Of a DNA stretch of 64,000 bases, positions 1,007 through 7,537 are shown one piece after another (within the stretch, counting starts at the first letter, position 1; every line of letters starts with the position of its first letter). Source of the stretch: Limimaricola sp. (GTDB lineage: Bacteria; Pseudomonadota; Alphaproteobacteria; Rhodobacterales; Rhodobacteraceae); assembly GCF_016125575.1 (NCBI RefSeq), contig NZ_WGLM01000002.1, positions 124,001 through 188,000 on the forward strand, given 5' to 3'. The notes under the pieces are model-generated. The model was given only the letters and a program-made list of their open reading frames with translations, did not search any database and had not been told where the DNA came from. The translations under genes and the position numbers were made by a program.

Positions 1007-1891
1007 ATGGGCGACACCCCCGAGGGGCCTTCACGACAGGCACCCGCCACAGGCGACGACCCCGCCGAGGGTCAGAGTCGCGGCTTCTTCAGCCGCATCA
1101 TCGAAGCGCTGGCTCCCACCGACAGCGGTGACGAGGGTGGGGCCGTGCGCCCCGCGAACGGCACCGTGGCTATGCCCGGCATGCTCAACCTGCGCCGGTT
1201 GCGCGTCGAAGACGTGGCAATCCCCAAGGCCGACATCGTTGCCGTGCCCGTTACCATCTCGCGTGATGACCTGTTCAAGGTATTTCGTGACAGCGGGCTG
1301 ACGCGGGTGCCAGTCTATGATGGCACGCTGGACAGCCCCGTCGGCATGGCAAACCTCAAGGATTTCGCGCTACGCCACGGTTTTGACGCGGGCGCCACGC
1401 CCTTTGACTTGCGCGCGATGCTGCGGCCGCTGCTTTACGTGCCACCGTCCATGCCGCTGGGCGTACTTCTCCAGAAGATGCAGGCCGAACGCATCCACAT
1501 GGCCTTGGTCATCGACGAATACGGCGGCACCGACGGTCTGGTGACGATCGAGGATCTGATCGAGCAGGTCGTCGGCGACATCGAGGACGAGCATGACATC
1601 GAAGAAGCGCGCACCTTCCTCAAGGAAAAGCCGGGGGTCTACATGGCGCAGGCCAAGACCCCTCTGGAAGAGTTCGAATCCGCCATCGGCATGGACCTGA
1701 CTGCGCATGACCAGATCGACGAAGAAGAGGTCGATACGTTGGGCGGGCTGGTCTTCATGCTGGCGGGCCACGTCCCCGCGCGGGGCGAGATCGTCACTCA
1801 CCCTGACGGGGTGGAGTTCGAGGTGATCGACGCCGATCCGCGCCGCATCAAGCGGCTGCGGGTGAGGCTGCCTTCGGCCGAGGCTTCGTGA
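1007..1891 (+). CDS. corC: CorC/HlyC-family CBS-domain protein
   Basis: A 294-residue cytoplasmic protein with a tandem CBS pair (about residues 70-200, including MALVIDEYGGTDGLVT.EDL, the second CBS signature) and a C-terminal CorC_HlyC transporter-associated domain (about 210-290). Family members are linked to Mg2+/Co2+ efflux or are called hemolysin-like. This copy lacks the N-terminal DUF21 membrane domain, so it is the short soluble form. The start is supported by the purine-rich site aggtaggaga just upstream. The stop overlaps the GTG start of lnt, which implies translational coupling. Confidence 0.92.
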   Translation: MGDTPEGPSRQAPATGDDPAEGQSRGFFSRIIEALAPTDSGDEGGAVRPANGTVAMPGMLNLRRLRVEDVAIPKADIVAVPVTISRDDLFKVFRDSGLTRVPVYDGTLDSPVGMANLKDFALRHGFDAGATPFDLRAMLRPLLYVPPSMPLGVLLQKMQAERIHMALVIDEYGGTDGLVTIEDLIEQVVGDIEDEHDIEEARTFLKEKPGVYMAQAKTPLEEFESAIGMDLTAHDQIDEEEVDTLGGLVFMLAGHVPARGEIVTHPDGVEFEVIDADPRRIKRLRVRLPSAEAS

Positions 1892-3417
1892 CCCAGCAGC
1901 CAGCGACGCGCGGCACCGGCCGCCGGGCGGGCGTGCTTGTCCTGCGGCTGGGCGGGCTGGTGGCGCTTGGTGCGCTTGCCGGGTTGGGGCAGGCGCCGTG
2001 GGCGCTCTGGCCGCTGACGCTGGCGGCGCTGACCGTCGCATTTTTCCTGCACGCCCGCGCCACCCGGCCCCGCGCCGCCTTCGGGATGGGCTGGGCGCTG
2101 GGCCTTGGCTATTTCCTGTTGACCCTGCACTGGATCATGCAGCCTTTCCAGGTGGATGCCGCGCGCGACGGCTGGATGGCGCCCTATGCGCTGGCGCTGA
2201 TGGCGGGGGGGCTGGCGCTTTTCTGGGGGGTGGGCTGGGCACTGGCGCAACGGTGGCGGCCCGCCGGCGCATTGGCCCTTGTCGCCGCATGGACGTTGGC
2301 CGAGGTCGCGCGCAGCGTCCTGTTCACCGGCTTTCCCTGGGCGCTGATCGGCCATGTCTGGATTGGCACGCCGCTGGCGCAACTGGCGGCCTTCGTCGGG
2401 CCGCACGGGCTGACCCTGCTGACTTTGCTGGGTGCTGCCGCATTGGCACAAGCGGGGCGGCGCAGTTTTGTGCTCGCCGCGCTGCCGGTCGTGGCCGGAG
2501 CTGTTGCCTGGCCACTGCTTGATCCCGGCCCGGCCCCCGCGCCCGATGCCACGTTGCCGCTGGTGCGCATGGTGCAGCCCAACGCGCCGCAGGACCAGAA
2601 ATGGAACCCCGACATGGCGGATGTCTTCTACAACCGCCTGCTCGACGCCACGGCAGCCAGCCCCGCGCCGGACCTTGTCGTCTGGCCGGAAACCGCGCTG
2701 CCCTACCTGCTGGAATATGCCACCCCCGCTTTCGAGACGATTTCGGACCTTTCACGCGGGGCGCCAGTGGTGCTTGGCATCAACCGGCGTGAGGGCAGCC
2801 GCTATTACAACGCGCTGGTCGTTCTGGGGCGCGGGGCGCAGGTGCTGGCCATCCATGACAAGGCGCATCTGGCCCCCTTCGGTGAATACATCCCCTTTGG
2901 CGACTGGTTTGCACGGTTCGGCATCCACGGCCTTGCCGCCTCCGAGGGTGGCGGCTTCAGCGCCGGGCGGGTCGGCGATGTGCTGGACATCCCCGGTATC
3001 GGCCCGGCGCTGGCGCTGATCTGCTACGAAGGCATCTTCGCCGAAGAGGTCGGCGCATACACCCGCCGTCCGCGCCTGATGGTGCTGATCACCAATGACG
3101 CGTGGTTCGGCACCGATGCCGGACCGCAGCAGCATCTTGCGCAGGAACGCCTGCGCGCCATCGAACAGGGCCTGCCGATGGTGCGCGTTGCCAATACCGG
3201 CATCAGCGCGATGATCGACGCCAAAGGGCGCATCACCGCGTCCCTGCCGTTGGGCGCCGAGGGTGGGCTGGACGCCCGTCTGCCACCTGCGCTGCCGCCC
3301 ACCCTCTATGCCCGCTGGGGCGACTGGACCGCGCTGGTGATGCTGATACTGGTCAGTCTCGCGGCGCTTTTCGCCCGTCCGCGCTTTTCGATTGACCCTC
3401 GCCGGGCGCGGCAGTAG
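1888..3417 (+). CDS. lnt: Apolipoprotein N-acyltransferase
   Basis: Lnt transfers a fatty acid from phospholipid to the N-terminal cysteine of apolipoproteins in the inner membrane. The 509-residue protein has several N-terminal membrane segments (about residues 15-210) and a C-terminal nitrilase-like domain. The expected Glu-Lys-Cys catalytic triad is visible as E268 in [10 protein letters not shown]325 in [12 protein letters not shown] and C379 in LICYEG. The GTG start overlaps the corC stop by four bases, so the genes are coupled. The stop is only about 20 nt before the metK riboswitch. Confidence 0.95.
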
Positions 3418-3435
3418 CCGAGAGGGATTATCATT

Positions 3436-3487
3436 TGCCGCCACAACGGCTTCCTGGCGTGGCGGTCTACACCCAATGGAGCGTTTC
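3436..3487 (+). promoter_or_regulatory. SAM/SAH riboswitch in the metK leader
   Basis: Stem P1 is CCGCCA (3438-3443) paired with TGGCGG (3460-3465). The conserved loop CAACGGCTTCCTGGCG (3444-3459) follows the 5' strand. Downstream, AATGGAGCG (3475-3483) can pair back with GGCTTCC (3448-3454) to make an H-type pseudoknot. The pattern CACAACGGCTTCCTGGCGTG plus AATGGAGC matches what I recall of the SAM/SAH class described from Rhodobacterales metK leaders. GGAG at 3478-3481 is also the metK Shine-Dalgarno, so ligand binding should hide the ribosome site and block translation. Confidence 0.93.
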
Positions 3488-3490
3488 CCC

Positions 3491-4672
3491 ATGTCTCGAC
3501 AGGACTACATCTTTACCTCGGAATCTGTGTCCGAAGGCCACCCCGACAAGGTCTGCGACCGGATTTCCGATACCATCCTCGATGCGTTTCTCGCTGCCGA
3601 ACCCGAAGCCCGGGTTGCCTGCGAGACCTTTGCCACCACCAATCGGGTCGTCGTCGGCGGCGAAGTGGGCCTGTCGGATCAGGACAAGTTGCACAGCTAC
3701 ATGGCGCATGTCCCAGACCTCGTGCGCGGGGCCATCCGCGATATCGGCTACGAGCAGGACAAGTTCCATCACGAGACGGTGGAAATCACCAACCTGCTGC
3801 ACGAGCAGTCCGCCCATATCGCGCAGGGCGTAAACGCCAGCGGCAACAAGGACGAAGGCGCGGGCGACCAAGGCATCATGTTCGGCTATGCCGTGCGCGA
3901 AACGCCAGAGTTGATGCCGGCGCCCATCCACTATGCCCATGCGATCCTGCGCCGCCTGACCGAGGCGCGCAAATCCGGCGCCGAACCCGACTTGCGTCCC
4001 GATGCGAAGTCGCAGCTGACGCTGCGCTACGTCGAGGGCAAGCCCGTCGAGGTAATGTCGCTGGTCCTCTCGACCCAGCACGCGCATGACAGCCAGACAA
4101 GCGCCGACATCCGTGCCATCGTCGAGCCCTACATCCGCGAAGTGCTGCCCGAAGGCTGGCTGACCGCGAACACCGAATGGTGGGTGAACCCGACAGGCAC
4201 CTTCGTGATCGGCGGGCCCGATGGCGATGCGGGGCTGACCGGGCGCAAGATCATCGTTGATACCTACGGCGGTGCCGCGCCCCATGGCGGCGGCGCGTTT
4301 TCGGGCAAGGACCCGACCAAGGTGGACCGTTCGGCCGCTTATGCCGCGCGGTATCTCGCCAAGAACGTGGTTGCGGCCGGCATGGCCGAGCGCTGCACGA
4401 TCCAGCTTTCCTACGCCATCGGCGTTGCCAAGCCGCTGTCGGTCTATGTTGATACCCACGGCGGGACCGAGGTGGAAACCGCCGCGATCGAGCGGGCGCT
4501 GCGCCGGGTGATGGACCTCAGCCCGCGCGGTATTCGCACGCATCTGGGCCTGAACCGGCCAATCTATGCGCGCACAGCGGCCTATGGCCATTTCGGCCGT
4601 GCGCCCGAGGCCGATGGCGGTTTCTCGTGGGAGCGGACAGACCTTGTCGATGCGCTGCTGCGCGAGGTCTGA
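3491..4672 (+). CDS. metK: S-adenosylmethionine synthetase
   Basis: MetK makes SAM from methionine and ATP. The 393-residue product begins [20 protein letters not shown] and carries [12 protein letters not shown] (ATP/methionine site), [12 protein letters not shown] and [16 protein letters not shown], all hallmarks of the enzyme. The frame is open further upstream to 3392, but the ATG at 3491 is chosen because it matches the family N-terminus and lies 9 nt after a GGAG site that belongs to the riboswitch. Predicted control is feedback by SAM/SAH at translation. queF follows after only 3 nt. Confidence 0.97.
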
Positions 4673-4675
4673 GGC

Positions 4676-5140
4676 ATGGTCGGGTCCGATCCCGGTGGCC
4701 TGACCCAGCTTGGGCGGCAGGTGGAAACGCCTGCCAGCCCCGAGGCCGCGATCTTGGAAAAGGTGCCGTCGCCCCATGCCGGCACCGATTACGTCGTGCG
4801 TTTCACCGCGCCCGAGTTCACCTCGCTTTGCCCGATGACGGGCCAGCCCGATTTCGCTCATATCGTGATCGACTACATCCCCGGCGACTGGCTGGTGGAA
4901 TCGAAATCGCTGAAACTGTTCCTGACCTCGTTCCGCAATCACGGTGCGTTCCACGAAGATTGCACGATGATGATCGCGCGTCGGTTGGTCGACCTGCTTG
5001 CGCCGCGCTGGCTCAGGATCGGGGCCTACTGGTATCCGCGCGGCGGCATCCCGATCGACGTTTTCTGGCAAACCGGCGCGCCACCGGAAGGCGCGTGGGT
5101 TCCCGACCAGGGCGTTGCGCCCTATCGCGGGCGCGGCTGA
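4676..5140 (+). CDS. queF: NADPH-dependent 7-cyano-7-deazaguanine (preQ0) reductase
   Basis: QueF reduces the nitrile of preQ0 to the amine preQ1 in queuosine biosynthesis. The 154-residue protein is the short, single-domain type. It has the nucleophile C52 in [11 protein letters not shown] with the nearby acid D59, the family motif ESKSLKLFL (75-83) and [10 protein letters not shown] (85-94), which forms part of the substrate site. It begins 3 nt after metK, so it is probably co-transcribed and sits downstream of the riboswitch. SAM is also consumed by QueA two steps later, which makes the linkage meaningful. Confidence 0.95.
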
Positions 5141-5275
5141 CTTTCGCGCGCGTGTTCTCAATTGAGCGCGCCGTGGCGCGTCCGCCGGAAGGGGGGACGG
5201 TTTGGTAAGCATCCGGCCGCGGCTTGACGCGGCGCGGGCGCTTGGGCTACCCCCGGTCCCCGACCAGAGGACCGC

Positions 5276-6040
5276 ATGACCGACACCCCCAAGACCGCCC
5301 CCGAGGGCAGTGAGACCGAAGTCTCTGGCACGGACGGCCATCCCACTGGCGCGCCATGGCGCAACTTCTATGGCCGAATCAAGGGCAAGACGATCCGCGC
5401 CGCGCAGGCCGAGTATCTGGACGAGGATCTCGGTCCGCTTTCGCCCGGACCGGTCGGCTGGGAGGAAAACCCCGAGCGTCGCCCGCTTGACCTCGCGGCG
5501 CGGTTTCCGGGCGCCGACGAGATCTGGCTGGAAATCGGCTTTGGCGGGGGCGAGCACATGGTTCATATGGCCGCGGCCTACCCGGCGATCGGGCTGATCG
5601 GCGCGGAGCCCTTTGTCAACGGTGTGGCGATGCTGCTGGGCAAGATCCGCGCGGCAGGTGTCACGAACCTTGCCGTCCATCCCGGCGATGTGCGCGACCT
5701 TTTTGACGTGCTGCCCGATGCCAGCATCGCGCGCGCCTTCCTCAACTACCCCGACCCATGGCCCAAGCGCCGCCATCACCGCCGGCGCTTCGTGACGCCG
5801 GAGCATCTGACCCCCTTGGCGCGGGTGATGCGGCCGGGTGGGCAGTTCCGTGTGGCCACCGACATTCCCGATTATGTCCGCCAGACACTGGAAGAAGTGC
5901 CGCGACAAGGTTTTATGCGCGACGAGGGGGTAACCGCGGACATTCATACGCCCTGGCCCGATTGGCTGCCCACCCGCTACGAGCGGAAGGCGCTGCGCGA
6001 GGGCCGCCGCCCGCATTACCTGACGTTCCGCCGCGCCTGA
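5276..6040 (+). CDS. trmB: tRNA (guanine-N7-)-methyltransferase
   Basis: TrmB methylates G46 of tRNA using SAM. The 254-residue protein has the SAM-binding loop EIGFGGGEH, the acidic strand GAEPFVNG, and the catalytic/tRNA-binding segment NYPDPWPK..H..RRF. The N-terminus up to about residue 35 is a variable, probably disordered extension. The gap of about 135 nt after queF holds GC-rich inverted repeats but no clear terminator. With metK and queF it forms a SAM and tRNA-modification cluster. Confidence 0.94.
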   Translation: MTDTPKTAPEGSETEVSGTDGHPTGAPWRNFYGRIKGKTIRAAQAEYLDEDLGPLSPGPVGWEENPERRPLDLAARFPGADEIWLEIGFGGGEHMVHMAAAYPAIGLIGAEPFVNGVAMLLGKIRAAGVTNLAVHPGDVRDLFDVLPDASIARAFLNYPDPWPKRRHHRRRFVTPEHLTPLARVMRPGGQFRVATDIPDYVRQTLEEVPRQGFMRDEGVTADIHTPWPDWLPTRYERKALREGRRPHYLTFRRA

Positions 6041-6042
6041 AG

Positions 6043-6098
6043 CGGGGCAGGGGGGCGCTGCCCCCCTCTGCCTGCGGCATTCACCCCCCGGGATATTT
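6043..6098 (+). repeat. REP-like palindromic intergenic element, copy A
   Basis: The stretch after trmB contains the inverted repeat GCAGGGGGGC / GCCCCCCTCTGC followed by a CACCCCCCGGGATATTT end. Its reverse complement resembles the sequence at 29437-29485: both share AAATA.(T/C)CCGGGGGG and GGGGGGCAGCGCCCCCCT. It lies between convergent-safe intergenic edges and may also work as a transcription stop for trmB. Assignment as a dispersed repeat rests on the two copies seen here. Confidence 0.6.
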
Positions 6099-6178
6099 GC
6101 AAGGCAAAGGCAGCCGGGTGATGGACCCTGTCGGGTGGCTCGGCTATGAGGCGGCGAGGTTCAATCGAGGTGTCGCCC

Positions 6179-7537
6179 ATGTCCGGCTCTGCCCATCCCG
6201 TCCCGATGACTGCCCGCCGCGCCGGCCCGCTGACGGGCGAGGCGCATGTGCCGGGCGACAAGTCGATCTCGCACCGCGCGCTGATCCTTGGCGCCCTCGC
6301 GGTGGGCGAAACGCGGGTGACGGGGCTGCTGGAAGGGCAGGACGTGCTGGATACCGCCGCCGCGATGCGCGCCTTCGGCGCCGAGGTGGTGCGTGAAGAG
6401 AGCGGCGTCTGGTCGGTGCATGGCGTGGGCGTGGGCGGGTTCGCCGAGCCGGCAAGCGTGATCGACTGCGGCAACTCGGGCACCGGCGTGCGGCTGATCA
6501 TGGGGGCGATGGCGACCTCGCCCGTCACGGCGACCTTTACCGGCGATGCCTCGCTTAACGGTCGGCCGATGGGGCGGGTGACCGACCCGCTGGCGCTGTT
6601 CGGCGCGCGCGCCTACGGGCGTGCGGGCGGGCGGCTGCCGATGACGATCGTCGGCGCGGCCGACCCGGTGCCGGTGCGCTACATGGTGCCGGTGCCCTCG
6701 GCGCAGGTGAAATCGGCGGTGCTGCTGGCGGGGCTGAACGCGCCGGGCCAGACCGTGGTGATCGAGCGCGAGGCGACGCGCGACCATTCCGAGCGGATGC
6801 TGGCGGGCTTTGGCGCAACGCTGCGCGTGGAGGACGCGCCCGAGGGCCGCGTTATCACCCTGACCGGCCAACCCGAACTGCGGCCGCAGACCATCATCGT
6901 CCCGCGCGACCCGTCCTCGGCGGCCTTCCCGGTTTGCGTGGCGCTGATCGTCGAAGGGTCCGACGTGCTGGTCCCGAATATCGGGCTGAACCCGACGCGG
7001 GCGGGCCTTTTCACCACGCTGCGCGAGATGGGCGCCGACCTGACCTACGAGAACCCGCGCGAGGAAGGGGGCGAGCCGGTGGCCGACCTGCGCGCGCGCT
7101 TCTCGTCCGCGCTCAAGGGCATCGAGGTGCCGCCCGCGCGCGCCGCCAGCATGATCGACGAATACCCGGTGTTGTCGGTCGTCGCGGCCTTTGCCGAGGG
7201 GCCCACCGTGATGCGCGGCGTCAAGGAGTTGCGGGTAAAGGAAAGCGACCGGATCGAGGCGATGGCCGAGGGCCTGCGTGCCGCGGGCGTGACGGTGGAA
7301 ACGGGCGAGGACTGGTGGATCGTGCATGGGCGCGGCGGGGCCGTGCCGGGCGGGGCCACGGTGGCCAGCCGCCTGGACCACCGCATCGCGATGTCCTTCC
7401 TGGTGATGGGGCTGGCGACCGAACGGCCGATGACGGTCGATGATGCCAGCCCGATCGTCACGTCCTTCCCGATCTTCGAAGGGTTGATGGCCGGTCTCGG
7501 CGCTACCCTGACACGCGACACCAGTGGCCGCGCCTGA
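6179..7537 (+). CDS. aroA: 3-phosphoshikimate 1-carboxyvinyltransferase (EPSP synthase, CP4-like)
   Basis: AroA makes EPSP from shikimate-3-phosphate and PEP in chorismate synthesis. From the ATG at 6179 (GAGG site just upstream) the product is 452 residues. It shows [10 protein letters not shown] (24-33), [47 protein letters not shown] and [14 protein letters not shown], a pattern very close to the class II enzyme of Agrobacterium CP4. The loop that holds Ala100 in CP4 reads NSGTG here, with Gly101 at that place. An in-frame ATG further upstream (6146) is less likely because homologues begin near MS...TARR. Confidence 0.95.

Follow-up and report, generated by a model that had tools for sequence, protein, structure and literature searches.

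The question raised by this locus is how the expression of metK is set. A putative SAM/SAH riboswitch lies in the short space between lnt and metK, and it has to be decided which message carries the switch and which genes the switch reaches. In the window, by which we mean the whole 64 kb stretch of DNA that was analyzed, the plus-strand order is hlyC-lnt-metK-queF-trmB-aroA (Table 1), where hlyC is the name used for the CorC-like gene, its NCBIfam matches falling below their cut-offs. Our main reading, to which we give a probability of about 0.88, is that the riboswitch would control translation of metK and that the metK RNA would be made from a sigma-70-type promoter at the end of lnt.

Table 1 Coordinates of genes, RNA parts and promoter-like hexamers around metK in the window.
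Feature	Position	Strand	Basis or remark
lnt, apolipoprotein N-acyltransferase	1888..3417	+	TIGR00546, 297.5 bits; stop TAG 3415-3417
-35-like hexamer TTGACC, in the last codons of lnt	3392..3397	+	conservation of TTGAC-N18-TA
-10-like hexamer TAGCCG, overlapping the lnt stop codon	3415..3420	+	TA at fixed offset
Predicted metK transcription start (+/- 2 nt)	3427	+	placed 7 nt after the -10 hexamer
SAM/SAH riboswitch aptamer (RF01727)	3435..3483	+	cmscan, full length
P1 stem, 5' strand, CCGCCAC	3438..3444	+	covariance-model structure; covariation, 93 distinct sequences
Pseudoknot loop strand GCUUCC, U3452 expected to be flipped out	3449..3454	+	mapped by hand from PMC7367207
P1 stem, 3' strand, GTGGCGG	3459..3465	+	covariance-model structure; covariation, 93 distinct sequences
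GGAGC, pseudoknot 3' strand, holding the metK Shine-Dalgarno GGAG	3478..3482	+	sequence
metK, methionine adenosyltransferase, regulated gene	3491..4672	+	TIGR01034, 486.4 bits; stop 4670-4672
queF, type II preQ1 synthase, possible co-regulated gene	4676..5140	+	TIGR03139, 149.6 bits
trmB, possibly with its own promoter (TTGAC at 5224)	5276..6040	+	TIGR00091, 106.6 bits, just under the cut-off of 112.65

The aptamer and its relatives

The aptamer belongs to a known riboswitch class, within which it is ordinary and well supported. In a covariance-model search with cmscan, the SAM-SAH family (RF01727) matched over the full length of the model (positions 1-49 of 49). The score was 58.6 bits, where the curated cut-off is 40, and the E-value for the whole window was 3.7e-10. 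This bears out the original prediction of a SAM/SAH riboswitch between lnt and metK, which had its coordinates, stem, and loop right. No second Rfam match at gathering level was found in the window, and no further SAM-SAH match was found across the genome beyond 3435-3483. On the same contig, outside the window, there is one SAM_alpha (SAM-II) riboswitch (L241, 60.2 bits).

The aptamer ends directly upstream of the metK ATG. Six of the seven P1 pairs had been named beforehand (CCGCCA/TGGCGG), and the full stem is CCGCCAC/GTGGCGG. The loop, CAACGGCTTCCTGGCG (3444-3459), equals the consensus except for one A to G, a change common in relatives. A 3' segment had also been proposed to pair back to GGCTTCC; the two pseudoknot strands stand, but their register is refined here to GCUUCC with GGAGC, leaving U3452 out. 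This register was placed by hand from the solved structure, following PMC7367207 (G3449-C3482, C3450-G3481, U3451-A3480, C3453-G3479, and C3454-G3478). The GGAG inside GGAGC ends 9 nt before the ATG, so that the predicted overlap of the switch with the metK Shine-Dalgarno is present.

In order to follow the element in relatives, we assembled 80 metK loci, in most cases a single one for each genus, together with the 30 best-scoring aptamer loci and the window (111 in all). Removal of 12 loci without an exact aptamer core and of three duplicates left 96, with 93 distinct sequences for covariation. These loci are related and 30 of the 111 were picked as best-scoring aptamer matches, and counts given below are accordingly not counts of independent events. 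Five pairs of P1 scored higher than any of 1000 shuffles. Of the 93 sequences, 91 have a standard pair at 5:30 (CG, TG, TA, GC, and GT all occur), all 93 have one at 7:28 (CG, TA, TG) and at 9:26 (AT, CG, TA, GT), and 75 and 84 are paired at 4:31 and 6:29, respectively. Pairs 8:27 and 10:25 show little or zero variation, and no pairing is seen between positions 1-3 and 32-34. The pseudoknot strands are both present and complementary in the window and are invariant in the locus set, but a match to the loop was itself required for selection, so the pseudoknot gives no covariation support. GGAGC follows the aptamer core in 96/96 loci. Plain minimum free energy folding of the leader was mildly better than that of shuffled sequences (z -1.40), with 16 of 200 shuffles equally good.

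The SAM-SAH match is confined to a narrow range of bacteria. It was found in 357 of 390 genomes drawn from the window's own order, 353 of them above the cut-off, and in a class-wide draw in 3 of 240 genomes, all three from its own family. Named relatives that share the gene order (Tabrizicola, Defluviimonas, Gemmobacter, and others) suggest that this order is Rhodobacterales, the host order expected for the riboswitch class. Within one genus (g7), the 5 examined genomes with a match carry an lnt-linked metK that is 76-78% identical to that of the window, and the 14 examined genomes without one (L045-L058) carry a metK that is 54-58% identical and located directly behind ahcY in all 14. This is an apparent gene replacement of metK with loss of riboswitch control.

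The ligand response and the translational control of metK are assigned here by analogy with studied relatives, whose pseudoknot mechanism is described in PMC7367207 and PMC10516623; family membership thus supports the translational control originally predicted. That the aptamer is a relic and no longer responsive is very improbable. The covariance-model match covers the whole model, P1 is paired throughout, and the loop departs from the consensus only by the one change that many relatives share. We also considered an upstream, in-frame start for metK, as the window has an AUG within AAUGGAGC (3476-3478) that shares the metK frame. Of the 96 loci, 62 have an AUG at this site, and 15 of these have it in frame. 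Being in frame in less than a third of its carriers, it does not behave like a selected start codon, and we rejected it.

A promoter-like element across the end of lnt

Upstream of the aptamer, 85 of the 96 loci contain the motif TTGAC-N18-TA, which fixes the hexamer spacing at 17 nt and starts 39-62 nt upstream of the aptamer core. In the window it lies at 3392-3416 and occurs once in 64 kb, both strands counted. Elsewhere in the same loci the motif was found four times in 1,023,868 start positions, which gives an expectation of 0.009 against the 85 observed, and in the subset picked by metK only it is present in 59 of 69 loci. The gap is strict: N14-N17, N20, and N21 gave no cases and N19 and N22 one each, and among the 87 loci with TTGAC, 85 have the TA at offset 23, and no other offset between 18 and 30 has it in more than one locus. 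Eight of the 11 loci without the full motif keep the TA with one (5 loci) or two (3 loci) changes in TTGAC. In two others TTGAC is intact but TA is missing from its usual offset, in one of them by a shift of a single base. The last, L099, is the sole case with neither part.

In the window this motif encodes Ile-Asp-Pro near the end of Lnt, with the stop eight codons past the Ile codon, and it might be thought that TTGAC...TA merely reflects coding of a conserved Lnt tail. We give this explanation next to no probability, since the reading frame does not follow the motif. The 93 loci that have lnt upstream fall into three classes by the placement of its stop codon: 44 use the TGA contained in TTGAC, 19 use a TAA or TAG at the -10 place, and the remaining 30 have the stop at other sites. 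A complete motif is present in 40/44, 17/19, and 26/30 of these classes, respectively. The -10 place reads TAC or TAT in 22 of 87 loci. Furthermore, TTGAC-N18-TA is found in none of 18 lnt genes without metK in the surrounding stretch, near the stop or up to 400 nt downstream, three of these control matches carrying an internal stop. The three aptamer loci without an lnt match upstream include two of one genus (L015 and L016) that keep the element and L099, which is without it. Judged from the loci compared, the constraint on the motif is at the level of DNA, not of protein. A codon-pair comparison was also made: the last 22 codons of the lnt genes contain 18 Ile/Val-Asp pairs, 18/18 written as TTGAC, against 29/512 in the gene body. 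This test is weakened by TGA being the stop in many loci and is superseded by the frame test.

The conserved parts resemble an alphaproteobacterial sigma-70 promoter, with a TTG-containing -35, a 17-nt spacer, and a -10 that starts with TA and ends in a base other than T (position -7), in 85 of 96 loci. T is found at -7 in 0 of the 85, while it makes up about 0.2 of upstream bases. In the window, TAGCCG matches TATAAT at 2 of 6 positions, only the TA fitting the E. coli consensus. A consensus promoter scan of 3200-6200 on both strands found no site; such a scan requires that the -10 end in T and that each hexamer match at four or more of its six positions, and TAGCCG does neither. According to PMC8407463, more than 60% of alphaproteobacterial sigma-70 promoters are without -7T, and this absence is connected to the activator CarD. 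Because the -10 element lacks -7T, dependence on a CarD-type activator is conceivable, and metK is possibly CarD dependent, a suggestion that is our own.

From this element we infer both promoter activity and a start site. The metK RNA probably begins near 3427, 11 nt before P1, which would give a leader of approximately 64 nt in the window. Across the 85 loci the predicted start falls 2-16 nt before P1, with 4 or 5 nt in 46 of them, and the leader would be 54-60 nt long in 69/85.

The element could be bound by another factor, such as a repressor or an alternative sigma factor, instead of the main sigma factor. Its strong conservation is limited to TTGAC and TA, and the -10 is otherwise G+C-rich with no last-position T in 85/85, which would suit such a factor. 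Against it stands the spacing of 17 nt, the optimum for sigma-70 promoters. The hexamers and the missing -7T likewise fit the sigma-70 promoters of Rhodobacter sphaeroides and other Alphaproteobacteria, as given in PMC8407463, and we regard a different binding factor as quite unlikely.

The original prediction raised another source for the message, in which metK may be read from a phoH-lnt transcript and the switch would work inside a polycistronic RNA; this would leave metK without its own promoter. The hlyC-lnt-metK order is widely conserved among relatives, the lnt stop is only 20 nt before P1, and no terminator-like site was found on the plus strand in 3200-6200, all of which are in keeping with this proposal. 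However, the promoter-like element is conserved in 85 of 96 loci, and the short gap between lnt and the aptamer looks like part of a promoter and not like a sign of read-through. In G020, the genome of one of the two loci that keep the element without lnt upstream, lnt is found on the opposite strand at a distance of 11 kb and a divergent RND adaptor gene is found upstream of metK, yet both element and switch are kept; read-through from lnt is thus impossible there. Another genome (G132) has a second switch and metK copy behind ahcY (L099, G132:C1:581762-588262) and has also kept the copy behind lnt. As the copy behind ahcY is without the TTGAC element, read-through is the simpler explanation for it, and no other locus speaks as well for a polycistronic message. 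Taken over the locus set, we consider read-through unlikely as the main route, and the claim gives way to a start at the conserved promoter-like element. Because no terminator-like site was found on the plus strand, read-through from lnt may still add to the metK message.

Two genera (g57 and g68) have metK behind or near lnt with TTGAC upstream and no aptamer. The full TTGAC-N18-TA is kept in 3/3 loci of g68 (L134, L245, and L246), and in the two loci tested of g57 (L122 and L138) the TA is not kept. These leaders suggest that the promoter-like element can outlive the aptamer. Rfam searches of L122, L134, and L138 with E up to 1 gave no match above chance, and the two switch-less genera that were inspected showed no clear leader structure. 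A replacement RNA element was sought in the switch-less genera at five loci, again with E up to 1, and was rejected, as the searches returned a tRNA and two matches below the gathering score.

Genes downstream of metK

The queF ATG is 3 nt after the metK stop, a junction that had been read correctly. It had been proposed on this basis that queF shares the output of the switch. Among the 81 metK loci in the fetched stretches, window included, queF is downstream of metK in 5, and the junction is tight in three (the window, L081, and L115). Approached from the other side, the best 80 named queF loci, of 587 confirmed, include 8 that lie close to metK or trmB. These 8 all come from Rhodobacteraceae or Rhodobacterales (e.g., Tabrizicola, Defluviimonas, and Gemmobacter), and 7 of them have the aptamer core. 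As queF is found beside metK in few, related lineages, its coupling to the switch is plausible but appears to be lineage-specific.

Among these best 80 named queF relatives, most are from Rhizobiaceae, with up to 83% identity, and a relative from its own family (L081) is 85% identical. Horizontal transfer of the gene (4676-5140) is possible.

Inclusion of trmB under the switch had also been suggested. Here a TTGAC-N19-TA at 5224-5249, 52 nt upstream of trmB, weakens the suggestion, and trmB is probably outside switch control. A trmB promoter common to relatives was looked for and rejected: TTGAC-N17..19-TA is present in just 5 of 59 loci, the window among them, compared to 2 of 405 control windows inside metK, a weak signal.

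Proposed mechanism and comparison with known systems

In the mechanism that we favor, TTGACC and TAGCCG with their 17-nt spacer would act as a sigma-70-type promoter, from which metK RNA would start near 3427, placing the aptamer very close to the 5' terminus of the message. At low levels of SAM (or SAH), the pseudoknot would be unstable, leaving GGAG free, and MetK would be made. When SAM is plentiful, it would bind between P1 and the pseudoknot and lock GGAGC on GCUUCC, and initiation would stop, giving feedback on SAM synthesis. With 3 nt and no TTGAC between them, metK and queF would probably have a common message and, in part, a common translational output.

A wider view, held tentatively and at slightly under even odds, is that of a compact module in which a sigma-70 promoter without -7T in the lnt stop region and an aptamer approximately 2-16 nt from the RNA 5' end would set both transcription and translation of metK from about 100 bp of DNA, possibly with dependence on a CarD-type activator. 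In some lineages, including that of the window, queF would have come under this control as well, linking the supply of queuosine precursor to SAM, and the ahcY-linked copy in G132 would be a natural polycistronic case.

The riboswitch itself is established, and the window copy adds one data point. The useful correction concerns the metK message, whose start is probably a short distance upstream of the aptamer, at a promoter overlapping the end of lnt. The predicted start suggests which transcript to use in folding and reporter studies, here with a leader of about 64 nt, and, with the element read as a promoter, its need for an activator can be put to the test. The metK-queF junction would likewise make it simple to ask whether a queuosine gene, too, is set by a SAM switch.

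Compared with the SAM/SAH riboswitches of RF01727 (Weinberg 2010, PMC2864571; crystal structures in PMC7367207), the window has the same sequence, P1, loop, and GGAGC over the Shine-Dalgarno, the same position before metK, and the same narrow distribution, and the aptamer itself shows no difference. What is specific to the window is the context, namely queF 3 nt after metK and the promoter-like element over the lnt stop; in the available literature on the switch we found no description of these features or of queF as a target. SAM_alpha (SAM-II, RF00521) is likewise SAM-responsive and from Alphaproteobacteria, as stated in PMC4239095, but is of another family and structure, and there is no SAM-II match in the window. 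The candidate promoter has the TTG-type -35 and the -10 without -7T of the alphaproteobacterial sigma-70 promoters described in PMC8407463, and differs from them in overlapping the end of a coding gene and abutting a riboswitch.
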